From assembly GCA_946803715.1 (NCBI GenBank), contig CAMPET010000038.1, positions 3,814 to 49,315 on the forward strand: 45,502 nt of DNA. The letters run 5' to 3'. Position 1 is the stretch's first letter. Each line of letters begins with the position of its first letter. Made by a program: the position numbers and the translations under genes. Below are positions 9,843-44,451 of the stretch, piece by piece. A model generated the notes under the pieces. That model worked only from the letters and a program-made list of their open reading frames with translations. It had not been told where the DNA came from and ran no database searches. The stretch is from Beroe ovata. Lineage: Eukaryota > Ctenophora > Nuda > Beroida > Beroidae.

Positions 9843-9967
9843 TTGTCAGATGTTACCTGACCTGTTTCTCGCGCACGCGCGCCTTCATCGAAGGCCTTCA
9901 TGTTTCGGCCTTCGATGAAGGCGCGCGCGCCGCGCGCGAGAAACTGAGGTCAGATAAAATCTGACAA
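9843..9967. mobile_element. Palindromic MITE with 9-bp target duplication
   Basis: This is a 125-bp near-perfect hairpin. The left arm runs TTGTCAGATGTTACCTGACC to CTTCATCGAAGGCC, and the right arm is its reverse complement, ending CAGATAAAATCTGACAA. TGGCGATGC is directly repeated on both sides (9834-9842 and 9968-9976), a clean insertion footprint. A 9-bp duplication suits a Mutator-like transposase, but that is inference. A degenerate relative lies at 31160-31321. Confidence 0.85.
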
Positions 9968-10393: not shown

Positions 10394-13300
10394 TTAGTAA
10401 AGACTAAAATGATGCTCTGTTGAGTTGACATTATCGTCGTTTTCTTTGAATATCAATTCAAATGTTCTGATCTGGAAAGGATGGAGGGTAACTTTGTTTG
10501 CGTTTCCGTCTCCATCGTCTGTGTCACGCACGTCCTTTATATCCCTATCACCGGCTAGCCCCAATTCCTGTTCGGAGAAGCAGCATAAAACTAAATTGTG
10601 AACAAAACCTAATTGATCAAGAAAACTCGACAGAACCCACAATGCCTTTAAGGCTAAGAGTAGTTGATCGAGGGCCAAGGCATTCGAATAGAGCAGGCTA
10701 GAAATACATTCTTATTTCAATTGTATTACCTGATGGTGAGCTAGATCTCGTCCCTTGAATAGCGATGCTAAGTTCACAACTATGTCACCACTCCCAACCT
10801 CGCTACTCTCCAGCGTGTTTTCCAGTCGGACCAGCAGAGCGGTACTGTTGATTCTCTGTAGAGTGAGGAGGTTGAGGTATGGGTGGTTGGGGCCGGTGTA
10901 GTGGTAGTTGGTGGGATCCACGGGTATCCCTGCCCCTCCACTAAACGCCAGCGTGGGAGGGTAGAACACGTCTAGACCAATGTCTCGGTGGATGTGCCGA
11001 GACACTTTGTCACTGTAGAAAAGATAGTGCTTCCCCCGAGCTATGAGACCTCGTCCGTCAGCTGTCTCATTGAGCGGCTCTGCCACACCCCTCCTATCGT
11101 CCTTTAGGATACGCCGGTGAACCATGAACTCTAGTTGTCCATCATGTAGACTGGCAGCACCCTGACTCCGATCAGTGAGCACGGTGAGTTGCATGTTGCT
11201 CCCTGCTGTGTCCTCTATCCTAGCCCTGGTGTTGACCGGATAGTAGTTCCCTGCTATCGGTGACGTCACATTCAACTCCCACGTGGGCTGGTAGTTCAGC
11301 ACTCTCGTCACCATCTCCCGTCCGTTACTGTCCGTGAAGAATGTCTTGTTGGTATTCAGATCTGTCTCGTACCGGGTTATTATCTCTCGGCCATAGTCTA
11401 CCGGTATGGGACCAACTGTCCATTCCACTTCGATATACATCTTGTTGTTGTAAATCCTGGTAACCTGAAAAGCAAACAGTGTTAATTCAGCATTCATCCT
11501 TTCACGCATAGTTAAAGAACAGCTATTATTTAGGCTAAATTTAGTTCGAATTGAAACAAAAAGTGGCACTCAGTAATCAGTAAGTTTCATCAGCATGATA
11601 TGATATAGCACAATGAAATTCTTTGAGACGACTATAACCTACATCATTGAAATTGGCATAGGACTACCACTTTGTTATTTACACAGACTGGGGGTACAAT
11701 TCAACTTTAATATCACTAATTTGACCCTCATCTACGGATGTCTTTTTGAACTCTCTGGTCCTTATTCCTTATCGAATCAGTTCGTATCTTCTCGGCAATA
11801 TTTTTCACGAGACTATGTTCTGCATCCAGACTGCACTGTTTGAGCAGGCTTTCTGAGTTAGAGTCCAAGATGCACGTGGAGTCGAAATTCAGCCACTCTG
11901 AAAAGTCGGAAAGATGTTGGAACGGGAGTTTGCTCTGCTGATCCTTCACACTGATAGCCGCTCCCTTCTCAATGAGAACTTTAGCTGCATGGATGTTTCT
12001 ATGTTGTACAGCAGCAAAGAGGGGAGTTTGACCAGACTGATTGACAATTTCCACATCTGCACCGTGCGATATCAGCAGTTCTAACAACTCAATCGTCTGG
12101 ACCGATTCTGTGGTAATATGGAGGATAGGCTGACCCTCGTGCACAGCATTGGGATCAGCTCCGTTATCCAGGAGCAAGGAGCAAGCCTCCACCTTGCTCT
12201 TCACGGTATTCTCACTGTCCACTAGGATCTTCTTCAGGAGATCAGTAGCCTCGTCATCCTGCAACTTGATGTCCACACTGAGCAACCACCTCGCACACTT
12301 GAGATTGTTGTGCAGAAACGCGAGGTAAGTTAGACTGGGAGTAGTGCTCTGGTGGGACAGGATGTCCATGATATTGGCCTTGTCCTCGTGCATGAGCAGC
12401 ATAATGTAGTCTGCCCTCCCCAGTATGGCGCAGTAGTGAAGCGGCATGTACCCGTTCTTGTTGATCAGACTGAGACTAGCACCGTAGTAAGCCAGCACTT
12501 CTGCAATGTCTATCTGAGTGTCTGGGGTTCCAGCCCGGGAACTGCAAAGGTAGTGCATGGGTGTGTCCAGAGCAAGGTCCACTGCGTTCACATTGCTGCC
12601 ATGGTTAATCAGTACCTGTGCAGTGGCCACATCGTATACATAATGGAGAGGTGTGGCACCTTGATCATCTTTAACTGTCACCGACACTCCCATATCGAGC
12701 AACACCTCAATGATGGGTATTGCACCGAACTTAGCAGCCACGTGCATACATGTCATCCCCTCGAAACACCTAGTTTTGGAGGTCGATAACTCGTTCACCT
12801 TGTACTTGTGCTCCAGTACCACTTTGTTGAGAAGGTCCATGTCCCCTCCCAGGACAGAAATTGTACTGTGTCGGATAAACTGGTAATGACCTGTGATGAA
12901 CTCCCTGAACTTGTCGTTGTTCATCGTCTCCAGTACTGACTTGTTGTACACGTTACGAGTGAAAATATCAGCGCCCCACTCAATGAACAGCTTGCACATC
13001 TGTCGGTCACACCTCTCGGCAGCAATGAAGAACGGGGTCTTCCCCTTCACATTCTTTATCTCAAACTGAGCCTTCTTCTCGAGTAGGTACAGAGCAATGT
13101 GGAAGAAGCCACACTTGGTGGCAAGATGAAGTCCAGTGTTGCCCGAATTAGAGTCCTGGGAGTCAATGAACTCCGCTGACTCATCGTAGAAACGGAGCAA
13201 CTTCTTCACAGTCAGCAGATCACCAGCTTTTACCCGCTTATGATACACTTTCTGCAGAAAGAGCTGGGATCCTGGGAAAAGTTGGTAGAGAAAGTTGTGT

Positions 13301-16300
13301 CCCGGTTTTAGGGTACGGTTCTTGGTCAGCGACTCGAAATAGATATCGTACTTGTCCTCGTAATCGTCAGAGCATATCTCCGATATCTCGTTCTCGGGTA
13401 AACTGAGCAGTTCCCGCGCCGTGGGGAGCTTGGGGTCGCGGAAACCGCTGAAATCCTCGATAAATTTGTCCTCGGTTTTGTCATACAGAACAATTCTCCG
13501 TGTTGGACTGATTGTCTCCTTTATTTTGGAGGTGTAGAATGCAGCATTTGTCAAGCTCAGGTTGATGTATTGAGAGTCAATGAGGTTGGATATAACAATG
13601 GGTCTCTTGATGGGCTCACTCACAAACCTCTGTCTCAGCCGGTATGCAATCACAGCATGCACTCTCAGTTTCTCAGCCTCGGCATCTTGCACCCAAACTT
13701 TTAGTTTAGTGACGTCATACGTGCTCTCCAGCCGTTCCTGCTCCTTCTTCAAAACTTCCACTTTCAGATGGAGCTCCTTCTTTTGACGGGACTCATTGGC
13801 ACTCATGCTAATCTTACTCATTTCTTCCAACTCTTTATTATTTACGATCAGCTTCTCCTGTAGAGTGCTCAACCGTTTTACCACTTTCTCAGCCTGCCTG
13901 AACAATAGTGCCTTGTTGAAAATGCATGCCAGATACGCACACATTGCCTGATTGTCTGCCATGACTAGATCCTCGCTGTCAAAATCAGATTTCACTCTGA
14001 GGATATTACAGAGCGCCTCCAGGGCCAAGTTGACACTCCACTTATCGTTTAGCATGATATCAGGGGTGAAAATGTCACCGTACACACTGTTCACCAGGGT
14101 CAACAACACTCGTGTGTCCTTCAGATCACTCAACGAGGAGAAAAACCCGACCACGCCCTTACCCTCACTGATACACGTGATGTACTTGTTCACCAAGTCA
14201 ACGCACGTGCTGGACGGTTTCAGTTTAGATCGCCACGTGGAGCGCCGTTCCTCCTCGCTCAGCCTCTCCTCCTCCATGTCTGCGTCCGACTTGGAGAAGA
14301 GTCCCCGGGTTTTGGATGTGGTGGCTGATGCTCCGGGTTTCTCGGTGTCGAAAACAGGGTTAAAAGGGACGTTTAGCAAGAGGTTGGTATCCTCTGTATA
14401 GGCTAGTGTGTACTCGAATATGCGGAACAAGTCAGATTTAACCAGGTGCCATAGCAACCACTCTGTTTCGTCATATGCACCTCTACCAAGGGCAGGGGAC
14501 TCGCAGTAAAATGCGTTCTGGAGAATTCCAGCGTCTTTCAGCTCGTCGAGAATCCAGTCCACACGGGTGACTTGTTGGGCAGATGAGAGGTTGTCCCACG
14601 ACCCCAGTTTCTTGATGTCGACCCCAACGAGCACATCCACAAACACCTTCATGTTCTTCCCTCGAAACAAATCCACAAACACGTTCTTCATCTGGATGTC
14701 ACGGGAAGCAAGACGGAAATTCGTCCAGATTGTGTACGCTTTTTTCCTAGTCAACATGACTCAGCCCTAGCTGAAGAAAGACGTATCCATATTGAAAATG
14801 AGTAACTCAAACTGTTGTCCAGGTTTGGTGCCAAAAGTAAAATGTGTTGTGGAATTTCATTTAGCATCGTACGTAGAGATCGAAAGCGAAAGTATTAAAC
14901 GACGAGGATTGAATCATTGGAGAGTGAAGGGGCTAAATCAGACCACTACTACAGTGCCATACAATCAACAGTCGCGGCTACTCAAAACATGATAAACATA
15001 TCGCACACTGGACTGATTCTTTAACAAAATGTAGGCATTGTATCTACAATAGAAGCTAGCAGTAACAAAGTATGCATGGTAAGCAAGTACAGGGACATGT
15101 AATCCGCACGTGTGAGTTTTACTTATGAAGCTCAAACACCATGTGAACACACTGAAGCAGCAACTGAGCTATATATCATCGCTCTGTGGCGAATTTTAAT
15201 AAATACTCCGGTTTTATTAACAGCTCGTGATCAGGTCGCTACCCTTTTTCCGCACTATTCGGAACAAAGAGGCTCGAAATCTCGCTGTGTAATCACACCG
15301 CACGCTATGAGGTCAGCCTTTGGCGGTCAACAACAGCATGCCGCATGAATAAGTGAACGTGCGCGCGTGTGTGTCGCACGAGTACTCAGCAATCAGCAAC
15401 ACGCAGGTGCCCTGCTTTTGGTCAAGTGGTGGTCAAAACAAGGGTTAATAAGGCCGGTACAAGCGGGTATCAATCGTCAGATGTGTTTTATTGGTCAATT
15501 GTGTGAACAGGATATGACCGTGAGGTAAGACTATGAGGTCAAAATACGCGAAAGTCTTCGATAAGAGCGATTGCAAACTTTCTTTGAAAACTGATGATTG
15601 AATCTCTCAATCAATCGTTAAAAAGTGAAATATATCCGTCAGTGGCCTAACATTTCTCCAGATGACCTAAACGCATGCATTCCAAACAGCAATCAACTAC
15701 ATTGGTGTGGTGAGAAGCAACACAGCATAATATTCAGGTCACAAGCAGATATGGGATTAACATTGTGTGACATGATTGGAATTAACTAACCTGTGTGATC
15801 CACTCTTTGAAGGTTTGCCATATTTCTGTGATCTGATCACCAGGTATGAAATCCGTGAGAACTGGATCTCCTAAATCGTCAGCCTTGTCGTTCATTGGAC
15901 GGAATATGTACGCTCCTGCGAATGTGATAAATCTTAATTCCTCAAATCCAACACGGATTAAATCTCGCATTTCACATTTGATCCCTATTTGATCCATGTC
16001 ATTTATTTCCCCCGGAGTCCCATCATCACAATCACCTGAAGGTTGAGAGTCAGCATCATTCCCAGTGCTCGATGCATACTCCATGAACCTCTGTGTTAAC
16101 GAGTTGGAAACCCCACTAAGACCAGCTAGCTTATTCTCTATCCGAACCATGGCCCCCGTATCGTAGTCAAAGTACACCCGGTACACTTTGGAATCGACGA
16201 ACAGTGGTTCACCCCGCTTCACGGGCACACTACGGAGAGGTGGCTTGGTCTGGATTAGACTCAGCTCGATAACGTAACTGTTCCAGCCCAGGGGAGGGAG

Positions 16301-19181
16301 GGAAGCGAGGAACACCGCCTCGAGAGGTAGAGCGGCAGAGTTCAGGTCACGTGTCCGGGGACTGACTCGGACCATCTCCATGTGGAGATATCGCCCACTC
16401 CGTGACTCCAGGATACGGTAGTGGGGGTGGGCAAGGGGAATCCTAATATATTCCTGTCGGGGCACAACCCTGCGAAAAGAGGGGGGGATGAGGGGGTGCA
16501 TGTCAGATTGCAAAAATTTCCCCAACACAAACAAGAGATCCAACTTATTCATCCCGATATATGCACGTCTCTTACCTGGAATTATAAATGACGAGGTTGA
16601 AGGAGGAGTTCCCATCTGCCATGACGTCACAAACACTCTCGTTGAGATATCGGCAGGAGGAGAACTTGGCAGCGTGCCCAGTTGCTTGTTGGAGAGCCGA
16701 GTTGATGAGATTCTCACACTCAGTGTGCCCGGCTGCAAGTCTTCTCGCGTAGTCGTTTGCCACGTGCTACATAGGATTACGTGATCATACCGGGAATTGT
16801 CATCTCTCAGTGAAAGCACACATCATATACCTCGCATGATTCCCACCTGTTTGCTGGTCCCACTGACAGCATCATGGTGTTGGGCCACGCCCATAGCGAG
16901 TCTCAGCAGCTGGGAGCTGTACTTGCCAGGGACAAGTGCCTCCAACTGTTTACATGTCTGCAACACCCCGTTACAAGTCCTCACGTAACCCTTCAATGTG
17001 GGTCTGGAGGTAAAGTAACCGGTCCAGTAGGCCTGGGGACCGTCAGCGTAGGGGAACAAGTCGTCAGTCTTATTCTGCATGGTTCCAATCCCTTTCAGAA
17101 CTGCGTCCATATAACGTGTTGGGGTCGAGTAAATCATTTTGAAACCATTCTCAGTTGAGTTAGCGTTCACATAGTCCATCAGGATATCAAGATTCTTGAA
17201 GTATTTCCTTGCGTTTTGGTAGCAGAAATCTCCGCCCATTGTCAACATTATGTTACCACTCCTGTAGTGCGATGCCTGCAGTGGAGAACATTGTGATCGT
17301 TCAGCAGGAGCAACACTAGCACGTAATTTGAAATGTAGCGCGATCACGTCAATAAAATACACTATGGGTGTAACTAGTGAAACCAGTATGGTGTAACTAG
17401 TGTAAGCAGTATGGTTAATGGTTACGGAGCAACATCCCCCAGTACTGGAACCTGGTTGCTAAGATACCGCACAAACTCCCTGCTCCTCTCCACAGCATTG
17501 AACTCTGGGGACTGTCTGTTGGCTACTATCGGGGAATCAGCGCACGTGGTATCGAAACAGAAACCGGGCGGTGCCCAGTACATGTCCCACATGACGTGAG
17601 TGAAGATTGGTAATCCCTCGTCCTCCTTGCTTGCCCACCACTGGAACTCCAAACTGAAATTGAAGTGATGTTGGGCGCGCGGCTCATGTGCTAACCTGTT
17701 CGTTTAGATAATCTACGAAGTCCTCCACCCGACTTGGAATGTTGTACTCGGGAGATTGTTTGTTTTCCACCATCGGCTGGGCTATGCCTCTACGGTCAAA
17801 GTCGAAGCCGGGAGGCGCGTTATAGTGACGGTACAACACCCCAGTAAATATGTTATTATCTCCCAATGCCCAGTTATACTCTAGACTGAAACGGAGTTAT
17901 TCACTGCAGTATGGGCTCTGTATGGGATCAATCATTATAACCGTAAGGAAAGAAGAGAATGAACAATGTCATACTTCTTGTCTTGTTTCCTCTTATCGTA
18001 ATCCTGATAGTGCATTCTGGCGAAGAAGAGTCCCTTGAGCCCCATCTGGGCACTGAGGTCAGCGTGTGCTGAGCTGTGGCCGAATGGATCAATCTGCCAG
18101 GCTACAGTTGGGGCGATGTTTATCTTCCCATCTTCCTCATCCTCCAACCCAGCTCCTACCTGACGAATAGAATAACAATAGTAGAGAAATCAAAAGTCGG
18201 GAAATAATCCCGGTGACGAGGTATAATCTTATAGCAATACGTCATCTCCAACTCACCTCTCGACGGAGCCATCTTAGCCCTTCCGACATCTGATCGATGG
18301 TGGCTGCGTAGTGGACTGACGCCTCGTCGTTCATACAGTAGCCAGCGTTGATAAACTCAAACTGTTTCCTCTTGATGAGGGTCCGGACCTTGCTCCGGGT
18401 AGACTCGCTCTGCTCCTCCCACCATCTCTTGAAAAATGCTATCTCCACGTAGATGAAAGTTTTCTTGGGATCCGCCATCAACTCCTCGATCACTGTGTCG
18501 ATAATGTACTGAACCTGTGCGGAGATAAAAATATCATGGAATCGTCGACTTGTATTGTCTTGCGCAAACATACAGGGGAGTCTCAACCGGGGTCTTAATA
18601 TGATTGCGGGATTGGGGTAAAAATCACCCTGCACTCGCGCGCATGTGTAACTCACCCCTCCCTTGTAAATATCCTCCCTAGATCCGTAGTAGTACTGGTC
18701 CACTGTTTTGAGCCAGCCCACGTCATCATGTGTATGGGGGACCACGTGAACTGTCACCAGACCACCCTGGTGCGGGCCTGCGGGCTCCCTGCGGGAAATG
18801 GGATGTCCGTGTTAGGGAACCAGGTTCTGCAGGGAGAACTACGCTAGTACGCTAAGTGTCTGGGAATCCTTAAAGTTAAAGCGCTCAAAGTCTTGCTAGT
18901 GCGTAATGCGTATTACAAGGAAAATTTCTTTTAACCATTCCCTGATGTCAATGATATACCCCGTTACCCCGTTAACTCCATAGACCATTAAAATTTGTTG
19001 AGGGAGCCACTATATAACCCAATTAGGCGGTGTACACGGCTAGTGTTGTCATTGTCAGGGAACCGCGCGTGTGAACCTACTCAGGTGGGAGAGGGAATGC
19101 GTGGTTTAAGTCCAGATCATCCTCGTACGAATAGGAACAGGAGGCAAGACAGAGCAATACAACAGAATGTAAAAATATCAT
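10394..19181 (-). CDS. MAN2B1-like: Lysosomal alpha-mannosidase (GH38), complete gene with alternative exons
   Basis: The enzyme trims alpha-linked mannose from N-glycans in the lysosome. CDS exons in transcript order: 19181-19081, 18788-18656, 18514-18257, 18159-17975, then 17885-17696 or 17653-17452, then 17275-16847, 16766-16576, 16469-15791, 11464-10730 and 10567-10394. All borders are GT..AG and all phases fit. The product is 1024 or 1028 residues (human is 1011). A signal peptide starts [16 protein letters not shown]38 landmarks are HTHDD (52-56), nucleophile Asp188 in IDPFGHS, TMGGDF with Asp305, and [10 protein letters not shown] (421-430). The C-terminal half has [35 protein letters not shown] and [12 protein letters not shown], all typical of the lysosomal clade. 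N-glycosylation sequons are frequent. Introns are 42-292 bp except one of 4326 bp that holds another gene. The GTG at 18757 is not the start. Confidence 0.95.
11728..14757 (-). CDS. Intronless tandem CH-like / coiled-coil / ankyrin-repeat protein, nested in a mannosidase intron
   Basis: A single open frame of 1009 codons starts at ATG 14757. Residues about 5-115 and 183-285 each resemble a calponin-homology fold. The second is clearer ([20 protein letters not shown] and later [20 protein letters not shown]), which suggests actin or microtubule binding. Residues about 285-365 form a charged coiled coil. Ankyrin repeats follow at about 537-605, 665-795 and 855-945, with [20 protein letters not shown] and [11 protein letters not shown] cores. 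I do not know a named vertebrate orthologue with this order. The gene lies wholly within the 4326-bp intron (15790-11465) of the mannosidase gene, on the same strand. An ATTAAA (11711-11706, minus) just after the stop could serve for polyadenylation. The lack of introns among intron-rich neighbours suggests retroposition. Confidence 0.9.
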   Translation of the reverse strand: MLTRKKAYTIWTNFRLASRDIQMKNVFVDLFRGKNMKVFVDVLVGVDIKKLGSWDNLSSAQQVTRVDWILDELKDAGILQNAFYCESPALGRGAYDETEWLLWHLVKSDLFRIFEYTLAYTEDTNLLLNVPFNPVFDTEKPGASATTSKTRGLFSKSDADMEEERLSEEERRSTWRSKLKPSSTCVDLVNKYITCISEGKGVVGFFSSLSDLKDTRVLLTLVNSVYGDIFTPDIMLNDKWSVNLALEALCNILRVKSDFDSEDLVMADNQAMCAYLACIFNKALLFRQAEKVVKRLSTLQEKLIVNNKELEEMSKISMSANESRQKKELHLKVEVLKKEQERLESTYDVTKLKVWVQDAEAEKLRVHAVIAYRLRQRFVSEPIKRPIVISNLIDSQYINLSLTNAAFYTSKIKETISPTRRIVLYDKTEDKFIEDFSGFRDPKLPTARELLSLPENEISEICSDDYEDKYDIYFESLTKNRTLKPGHNFLYQLFPGSQLFLQKVYHKRVKAGDLLTVKKLLRFYDESAEFIDSQDSNSGNTGLHLATKCGFFHIALYLLEKKAQFEIKNVKGKTPFFIAAERCDRQMCKLFIEWGADIFTRNVYNKSVLETMNNDKFREFITGHYQFIRHSTISVLGGDMDLLNKVVLEHKYKVNELSTSKTRCFEGMTCMHVAAKFGAIPIIEVLLDMGVSVTVKDDQGATPLHYVYDVATAQVLINHGSNVNAVDLALDTPMHYLCSSRAGTPDTQIDIAEVLAYYGASLSLINKNGYMPLHYCAILGRADYIMLLMHEDKANIMDILSHQSTTPSLTYLAFLHNNLKCARWLLSVDIKLQDDEATDLLKKILVDSENTVKSKVEACSLLLDNGADPNAVHEGQPILHITTESVQTIELLELLISHGADVEIVNQSGQTPLFAAVQHRNIHAAKVLIEKGAAISVKDQQSKLPFQHLSDFSEWLNFDSTCILDSNSESLLKQCSLDAEHSLVKNIAEKIRTDSIRNKDQRVQKDIRR
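14758..15790 (-). other. 5-prime part of the large mannosidase intron; probable promoter region of the nested gene
   Basis: About 1 kb of non-coding DNA lies between the mannosidase donor (15790) and the ATG of the nested gene. It must hold whatever promoter drives the nested gene independently, if it has one. No TATA box or other diagnostic motif is obvious. Confidence 0.35.
17367..17412 (-). repeat. Two-copy 23-bp direct repeat in the intron after exon 5b
   Basis: Two adjacent copies of a 23-bp unit containing GGTGTAACTAGTG differ at two positions. In transcript orientation they lie about 40-85 nt downstream of the exon 5b donor. They contain the palindrome ACTAGT. They could influence the choice between exons 5a and 5b, but that is only a positional inference. 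Confidence 0.6.
17452..17653 (-). CDS. Alternative exon 5b of the mannosidase (cysteine-containing version)
   Basis: This 202-nt exon has acceptor CAATTTCAG|T and a weak donor CAG|GTTCCA, with the same phases as exon 5a (2 in, 0 out). It encodes [49 protein letters not shown] and ending FVRYLSNQ. The C-x4-C pair matches the short disulfide loop (Cys268-Cys273) of the mammalian enzyme, so this is the more canonical version. It has a four-residue insert relative to 5a. Only 42 bp separate it from 5a. Confidence 0.9.
17696..17885 (-). CDS. Alternative exon 5a of the mannosidase (cysteine-free version)
   Basis: This 190-nt exon has acceptor CCGTTTCAG|T and donor CAG|GTTAGC, phase 2 in and 0 out. 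It encodes [27 protein letters not shown], then [18 protein letters not shown] and ending FVDYLNEQ. It aligns along its length with the next exon (17653-17452) and with a single segment of mammalian lysosomal alpha-mannosidase. At the two positions where the other version and mammals have cysteines, this one has Asp and a non-Cys residue. The conserved Tyr before the PP, thought to face the substrate cleft, is kept. Confidence 0.9.
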
Positions 19182-43217: not shown

Positions 43218-44340
43218 GGTTATTCGGCAACACTAGAACAGTGGAAAGAATTAAAAAGGAAGATAAACAACTGTGTGACTGCTGAAAAGCGCACAAACTT
43301 AGAACTTAGAAATCAAAGACCAAATATTCAGACGTCTGGATGTGTGAATCAAAATTTGATGATTGCTGGATATTAAATTCCTCTCGTGCCCAAACCAGTG
43401 TGAGATCAGCAAAAACTGCAACACCCAAACGCGGTAAATGAATAAATATCAGCCTCGATGCAGCGAGTAACTGCAGAGTGCAGTCCGTTAACTGTCACAC
43501 AGTGAGAGCTGAGGGAAGCTGTACAATAGGCCGCTGCAGTGTTACACCTCACTATTGCATAGCTCAACACTTAACATCGCCACTAAACCGGAAGACATAA
43601 TCGTTCGCGAGAAACCTAAAAAGAGCGTTGTAAAGTACCCTGTCTTTTGGTAAACATACACACACACTGGCGCATACCAAAGAGTCATGGAATTCCTCGA
43701 GTCACCGCAACGCATATATTATCAACAGGTTTAACATAATGTTTAGGCTAATTAACATTACTTAAGGGTGACGTGGTGAAGAGAAACCTAATACCCTACA
43801 TCGCGGCAAATTTTACACGGATAATGGCAAGGGACAATAGTGAATTACATTGATCATGATCTCAGATCTGGTATAACAGTGTTAGGAACGTGGAGCTGAG
43901 GAAGGAGATCCCACCCTGTTCATCCACCTGAAATTGGATATTGGTATTTGGCACTATCCAAGGAGCCCCAGTCCGACCATAATGTCTCATTATGGACACG
44001 AGGCACTATGCCTCTGTGCTCTGGCAGTCCTAAATTAGAAATCCACCGCTCGCCTCTGGGACCAGTCAATTGGTGGTTAGCTTAACTAGGGTATGGTTTG
44101 ACTGAGGGGTGGGATTATGCAGTAACTAATAGCGTATAAGGGTAGAAACCAAATAAGCAGACTTTCAAGTTTCAATTTAATGCCCGGATTTGAGCGTCGA
44201 ACTTCGGCCCAATGCATTCACAGTGATTCACTATGGCGGATCAGAAGGCTCACCCGGAATTTTATCTCTGAAAAATTTAATTTGACCCTTCTGATCCACA
44301 CGTGGATCACAGGGTTCATCTTAGGTGACCTTCTGATCCA
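43218..44340. other. Upstream region of the small coiled-coil gene
   Basis: No further exon is convincing. Several short GATCC-rich inverted segments from about 44230 onward belong to the mobile-element cluster that follows. Confidence 0.4.
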
Positions 44341-44351
44341 GTGATCCACGT

Positions 44352-44451
44352 AGCGCTTCCCTGGGGTCAAATTGGATTTGAGTGATCCTCCTGATCCACC
44401 TAAGGTGGATCAGGAGGATCACCGAATTTTGACTTGACCACAGAGAAGCGC
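44352..44451. mobile_element. Long hairpin with perfect 20-bp inner arms
   Basis: The inner arms GTGATCCTCCTGATCCACCT (44382-44401) and its exact complement (44403-44422) are separated by one base. The pairing continues imperfectly outward: GCGCTTCCCTGGGGTCAA on the left against the complement of TTGACCACAGAGAAGCGC on the right. The arms are about 49 nt in all. It is probably a foldback or MITE; a transcript would fold into a pre-miRNA-like stem. Confidence 0.8.

Follow-up and report, generated by a model that had tools for sequence, protein, structure and literature searches.

The window analyzed here is a 45,502-nucleotide (nt) stretch of DNA from the ctenophore Beroe ovata (GenBank assembly GCA_946803715.1, contig CAMPET010000038.1, positions 3,814 to 49,315 of the forward strand; the assembly totals 77.8 Mb and has 534 contigs). 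Between 19181 and 10394, on the minus strand, we found a complete gene that, judged by its sequence, is a lysosomal alpha-mannosidase (GH38), with lysosomal location and activity as predicted properties of the product. The gene has 12 coding exons, of which each transcript takes 11, and it runs on across a 4.3-kb intron (15790-11465) to a stop codon at 10394, a part of the gene that a first-pass annotation of the window had not seen. Two adjacent exons, 5a and 5b, encode alternative versions of one segment, and we consider it very probable that they arose by an ancient tandem exon duplication in the ctenophore gene and are used as a mutually exclusive pair.

In this exon pair, the positions, the lengths (190 nt for 5a and 202 nt for 5b) and the phases were as first annotated; both exons are entered in phase 2 and left in phase 0, and both have AG acceptors and GT donors. 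The encoded segments share 30 of 64 aligned residues (47%; the alignment has a single gap of 4 residues), close to the 45 percent that had been estimated, and their alignment scores 138, whereas 1000 shuffles average -10 and never exceed 24. By codon position, identity is 59%, 62% and 30% at positions 1, 2 and 3, respectively (63 codons). Third positions are saturated and positions 1 and 2 are kept, indicating that 5a and 5b are old and constrained as protein. Either exon alone keeps the reading frame, as claimed, and gives a product without an internal stop: 984 amino acids (aa) for transcript A and 988 aa for transcript B. When both exons are included, the frame runs into a stop after residue 327, within 5b, and when neither is included it ends after residue 234, in exon 6. 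The early stops thus fall at the sites that had been annotated; however, the frame alone is not enough to keep both exons from being included together. By eye, there is no third copy of the exon in the neighboring introns of 89 nt and 176 nt.

Table 1. Exons of the lysosomal alpha-mannosidase gene and two of its introns, in transcript order (positions are those of the window).
Feature	Position	Strand	Content
Exon 1	19081..19181	-	start codon, hydrophobic N-terminus (signal-peptide-like by eye)
Exon 2	18656..18788	-	HTHDD zinc/catalytic motif
Exon 3	18257..18514	-	
Exon 4	17975..18159	-	nucleophile motif QIDPFGHS; phase 2 at end
Exon 5a	17696..17885	-	190 nt, alternative segment A, without Cys268/Cys273 pair
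Intron 5a/5b	17654..17695	-	42 nt, GTTAGC...TTTCAG
Exon 5b	17452..17653	-	202 nt, alternative segment B, with Cys pair
Exon 6	16847..17275	-	MGGDF (acid/base) and HHDAVSGT (zinc) motifs
Exon 7	16576..16766	-	
Exon 8	16036..16469	-	
Exon 9	15791..15915	-	preceded by 120-nt in-frame intron 16035-15916
Intron 9/10	11465..15790	-	4326 nt; nested ankyrin-repeat gene inside
Exon 10	10730..11464	-	C-terminal GH38 domain
Exon 11	10394..10567	-	TAA at end

The Pfam domains Glyco_hydro_38N, middle and 38C were matched over their cut-offs in both isoforms (236.9/237.3, 77.0/77.1 and 110.0/110.1 bits for A/B), and a C2 domain match fell just below its cut-off (20 vs 22). These searches, like the full-length homologue searches, pairwise comparisons, trees and alignments described below, used a first gene model in which the in-frame intron before exon 9 was taken as coding, which adds 40 residues downstream of the segment and leaves the segment unaffected; for the alignment to solved structures, the query was residues 1-500 of isoform B, which lie upstream of those 40. 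The zinc and catalytic motifs, including HHDAVSGT, are present in A and B and are all within shared exons. The best two homologues are from ctenophores (Bolinopsis microptera, 64%, and Mnemiopsis leidyi, 62%, among the 120 listed of 3927 matches; 7975 candidates were scored). The homologue set used in what follows has 123 members, comprising 122 listed matches and a piece of L002, a second lysosomal-type mannosidase gene in the same genome (contig 218). The window gene shares domain order, catalytic residues and fold with MAN2B1, the bovine enzyme (1O7D) and the jack bean enzyme (6B9O); in contrast to it, these have one segment version each in their solved chains. In the same genome, L001 is presumably MAN2C1-like and L003 (contig 69) is what we take to be a Golgi-type alpha-mannosidase; L003 is open over 1018 codons and intronless in the stretch read.

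The first-pass annotation had pointed to related species as a place to look for the pair, and there we found an A-type segment in a Bolinopsis protein (P0001) and a B-type segment in a Mnemiopsis protein (P0002), each between similar flanks. P0001 is identical to A at 47 of 62 positions and to B at 32 of 64, and P0002 is identical to B at 35 of 66 positions and to A at 26 of 64. When P0001 and P0002 are compared with each other, 133 of 160 residues upstream and 589 of 696 residues downstream are identical, and only 28 of 64 within the segment (29 of 64 on a second alignment). This contrast (-0.40, z -7.0) is the most extreme of 2587 pairs with flank identity above 60% from the 123 homologues, pairs that are not independent of one another; the second-ranked pair reaches -0.25. 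A window of 64 columns has its lowest identity within one column of the exon borders, just outside of which 29 of 30 and 28 of 30 positions are identical, and P0001/P0002 again came first in a second scan of 1198 pairs. When residues 222-296 of isoform A were used as a query, P0001 was the sole match among 5 candidates (E up to 10); with residues 200-310 of isoform B, 6 of 13 candidates matched, P0002 first. Since each relative shows one of the two versions, it is probable that a single gene gives rise to two forms of the enzyme through splicing.

To place the segments, we compared a tree of the segment (31 rows, 70 columns) with a tree of the flanks (937 columns). In the segment tree, A groups with P0001 (98/83) and B groups with P0002 (96/89). 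In approximately unbiased (AU) tests, forcing A and B together costs 18.3 log units and is rejected (p 0.0028), and forcing P0001 and P0002 together costs 18.4 log units and is also rejected (p 0.0185, a moderate value on 70 columns). In the flank tree, P0001 forms a sister pair with P0002 (99/98), and the window gene branches beside them (86/89). A conflict of this kind is what alternative exons predict, and it supports the mutually exclusive use that had been annotated; it also indicates that the exon was duplicated before the window species separated from Bolinopsis and Mnemiopsis and that both copies survived. The same comparisons bear on an assembly or gene-family effect, in which there would be two genes with one version each, or one fast exon that diverged between species. 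P0001 and P0002 do come from different species, and the genome does hold L002, which is about 60% identical to the window gene over the part matching exons 3-6 and differs from it in having that whole part as one uninterrupted stretch, with a single version of the segment that has both of the cysteines discussed below. However, 5a and 5b are on one contig with the same flanking exons, P0001 and P0002 have sister flanks, as one-to-one orthologues would, and rapid change of the exon in a single species would not pair P0001 with 5a and P0002 with 5b (the second AU test above), so we regard such an effect as exceedingly unlikely.

In the splicing pattern that we propose for the pair, exon 4 would join 5a or 5b and the chosen exon would join exon 6; both transcripts would be made, and the 984- or 988-aa products would be unlike only in one stretch of 64-68 residues. 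Joining of 5a to 5b would be blocked by the 42-nt intron between them, which may be too short to hold U1 and U2 small nuclear ribonucleoproteins together. The other 10 introns of the gene are at least 80 nt, compared to 42 nt here, and 26 introns of chaperonin genes, estimated from matches, are at least 70 nt (32 of 37 matches were used, five without a same-gene partner were omitted, and introns inside a match are uncounted). When we refitted the GT-AG borders of the six shortest chaperonin introns, the best fits were 70-87 nt. In human and other vertebrates, two studies use a steric limit of about 50 nt from the 5' splice site to the branch point (PMC5740500, PMC7969005). From nt 24 onward, the 42-nt intron has adenines at positions 24, 25, 27, 30, 35, 36 and 41, and since the whole intron is 42 nt, any branch point in it is under this limit, suggesting that 5a-5b splicing is probably sterically blocked. 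Frameshift and decay would then act as a second barrier behind the steric block. By eye, the donors inspected here do not have a U12-type look.

Several observations weigh against an old, mutually exclusive pair. The clades tested in the segment tree were picked after the tree was seen, and one of the two rejections is the moderate one. In that tree, paralogues lie between A and B, and a grouping of the four alternative segments as one clade is unrejected (AU p 0.239), so the exon duplication may be older or younger than the one that gave rise to the paralogues. Each type was seen in one other species and both types in neither, and the source label of P0001, 'isoform X2', no more than hints at a second isoform. 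The steric limit of about 50 nt comes from vertebrates, not ctenophores, and for one of the refitted chaperonin introns the second-best fit is 49 nt. Competing RNA structures were considered as a selector; the energies of three intron-pair duplexes are no better than those of shuffles (192, 196 and 38 of 200 at least as strong, in one species). The B pair (5b and P0002) is 53% identical and its flanks are about 67-70% identical, so that 5b is under less constraint. That last difference, together with a 5b donor (CAG/GTTCCA) that is weak by eye, is what we might see if a single copy were used and the other were a relic, a decaying duplicate that is not spliced in. But 5a and 5b are both open, with equal phases and AG/GT borders, and each has a counterpart in the protein model of another ctenophore; moreover, a dead copy should have decayed long ago, whereas here third positions are saturated and positions 1 and 2 are kept. 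A relic is thus very unlikely.

The splice sites offer a further point on the same side, because a scan found 55 other GT/AG choices that leave the frame open to the end. Many of these lose much of one exon; at least 2 retain nearly all of 5a and 5b, by joining the 5a donor to acceptors 7 and 13 nt inside 5b. Through such sites both exons could be joined in frame to give a protein with the segment twice. However, the introns left by those two choices would be 49 and 55 nt, shorter than the other introns measured, and an adjacent double copy was found in none of the matched proteins (5a matches 112 of 123 and 5b matches 98 of 123). Two matches occur only in P0007 and P0008, where over 370 residues separate them, as expected of fused genes. 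We therefore give joint inclusion almost no weight and favor mutually exclusive use. P0007 (Anopheles melas) and P0008 (Nyssa), with their two distant segment copies, are probably products of fused neighboring genes.

The pair resembles known mutually exclusive tandem exons. In the OGDH exons 4a/4b and similar cases (PMC7969005, PMC5740500, PMC9741552), the exons are likewise adjacent, homologous, of equal phase and derived from an old duplication, joint inclusion breaks the frame, and the distance from the 5' splice site to the branch point is under the steric limit. In contrast, the window pair is in a lysosomal glycosidase and its whole spacer is 42 nt, whereas OGDH uses distant branch points in the intervening intron. 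In another ctenophore, Mnemiopsis leidyi, exon cluster-0 of Mhc2 is predicted to hold mutually exclusive exons, although in an unrelated gene for a muscle myosin motor (PMC3912159). The first-pass annotation was aware of no description of such a pair in this family, and we likewise found none for alpha-mannosidase in the literature, judged by titles and the starts of abstracts, with most subscription journals outside the coverage. The type of exon pair is thus well known, and its occurrence in the alpha-mannosidase family is new as far as this literature search shows.

In the swapped stretch, a beta-hairpin is followed by an active-site loop and a helix. Tyr251 of B (by position Tyr247 of A) corresponds to position 212 of the bovine chain 1o7d_A and is Tyr in 123 of 123 homologues; with an inferred offset of 49, position 212 is bovine Tyr261, a residue counted among those of the active site (PMC2788387). 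The two isoforms had been annotated as having different catalytic-cleft linings, and this holds in part: the segment contains the Tyr261 equivalent and adjoining residues differ, but the Tyr itself is unchanged in both. Cys268 and Cys273, for which a disulfide is listed (PMC11898060), are present in B and absent in A, where D and G take their places. Both cysteines are found in 119 of 123 homologues; the four exceptions are P0001 (D, R), P0016, P0008 and P0009. P0016 has Ser at both equivalents. In the alignment, jack bean mannosidase also lacks the pair, like isoform A, indicating that loss of the disulfide need not kill the enzyme and that the disulfide does not define GH38. In the same loop, P263L has been reported as a human mutation with low activity (PMC11931667). 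In the AlphaFold models of P0001 (A-type) and P0002 (B-type), which both match GH38 structures, the segment is a hairpin, a loop and a helix (pLDDT of the segment block 75-94 and 74-94, respectively).

From these differences, we infer that A and B may differ in activity; the loop change and the loss of the disulfide in A could tune specificity or stability. A wider proposal is that the isoforms have different tasks (in glycan preference, or in the pH or protease stability of A without the disulfide as compared to B) and that this exon has served repeatedly as a splice switch in early animals, Pocillopora hinting at a separate coral version; we hold this to be rather unlikely. A possible independent alternative exon in corals is suggested by the Pocillopora contrast. 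P0053 (Pocillopora verrucosa, 'isoform X1') is 90-93% identical to P0024 and P0029 over the remaining catalytic region and 67-68% identical in a 60-column window at the exon-5 segment.

The most familiar examples of exons swapped by splicing come from channels, muscle and adhesion proteins; the swap in the window would affect the catalytic domain of a lysosomal hydrolase with a housekeeping role. All three ctenophore species compared have versions of the segment, in a phylum that is a candidate sister group of other animals. The two products would be a natural enzyme pair, unlike only in a loop with an active-site residue and a structural disulfide, and so directly comparable. These data also suggest that some ctenophore gene models may show only one of two alternative exons.

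The 4326-nt intron of the mannosidase gene contains, in the same orientation, an intronless ankyrin-repeat open reading frame of 1010 aa (14760-11728, minus; Pfam Ank), which also has a weak calponin-homology match under its cut-off. Nested intronic genes are described as numerous in a ctenophore in one study (PMC8527503). In a search for the ctenophore spliced leader, the 17-base motif gave 0 matches and the 12-base motif gave 20 matches, compared to 13 with a reversed control, which is uninformative. Downstream of the stop codon of the mannosidase gene, at about 9870-9940, we saw by eye a near-perfect GC-rich inverted repeat, and elsewhere in the window there is an Rfam SNORA5 match at 44260-44442 on the minus strand (33.3 bits vs a cut-off of 30).

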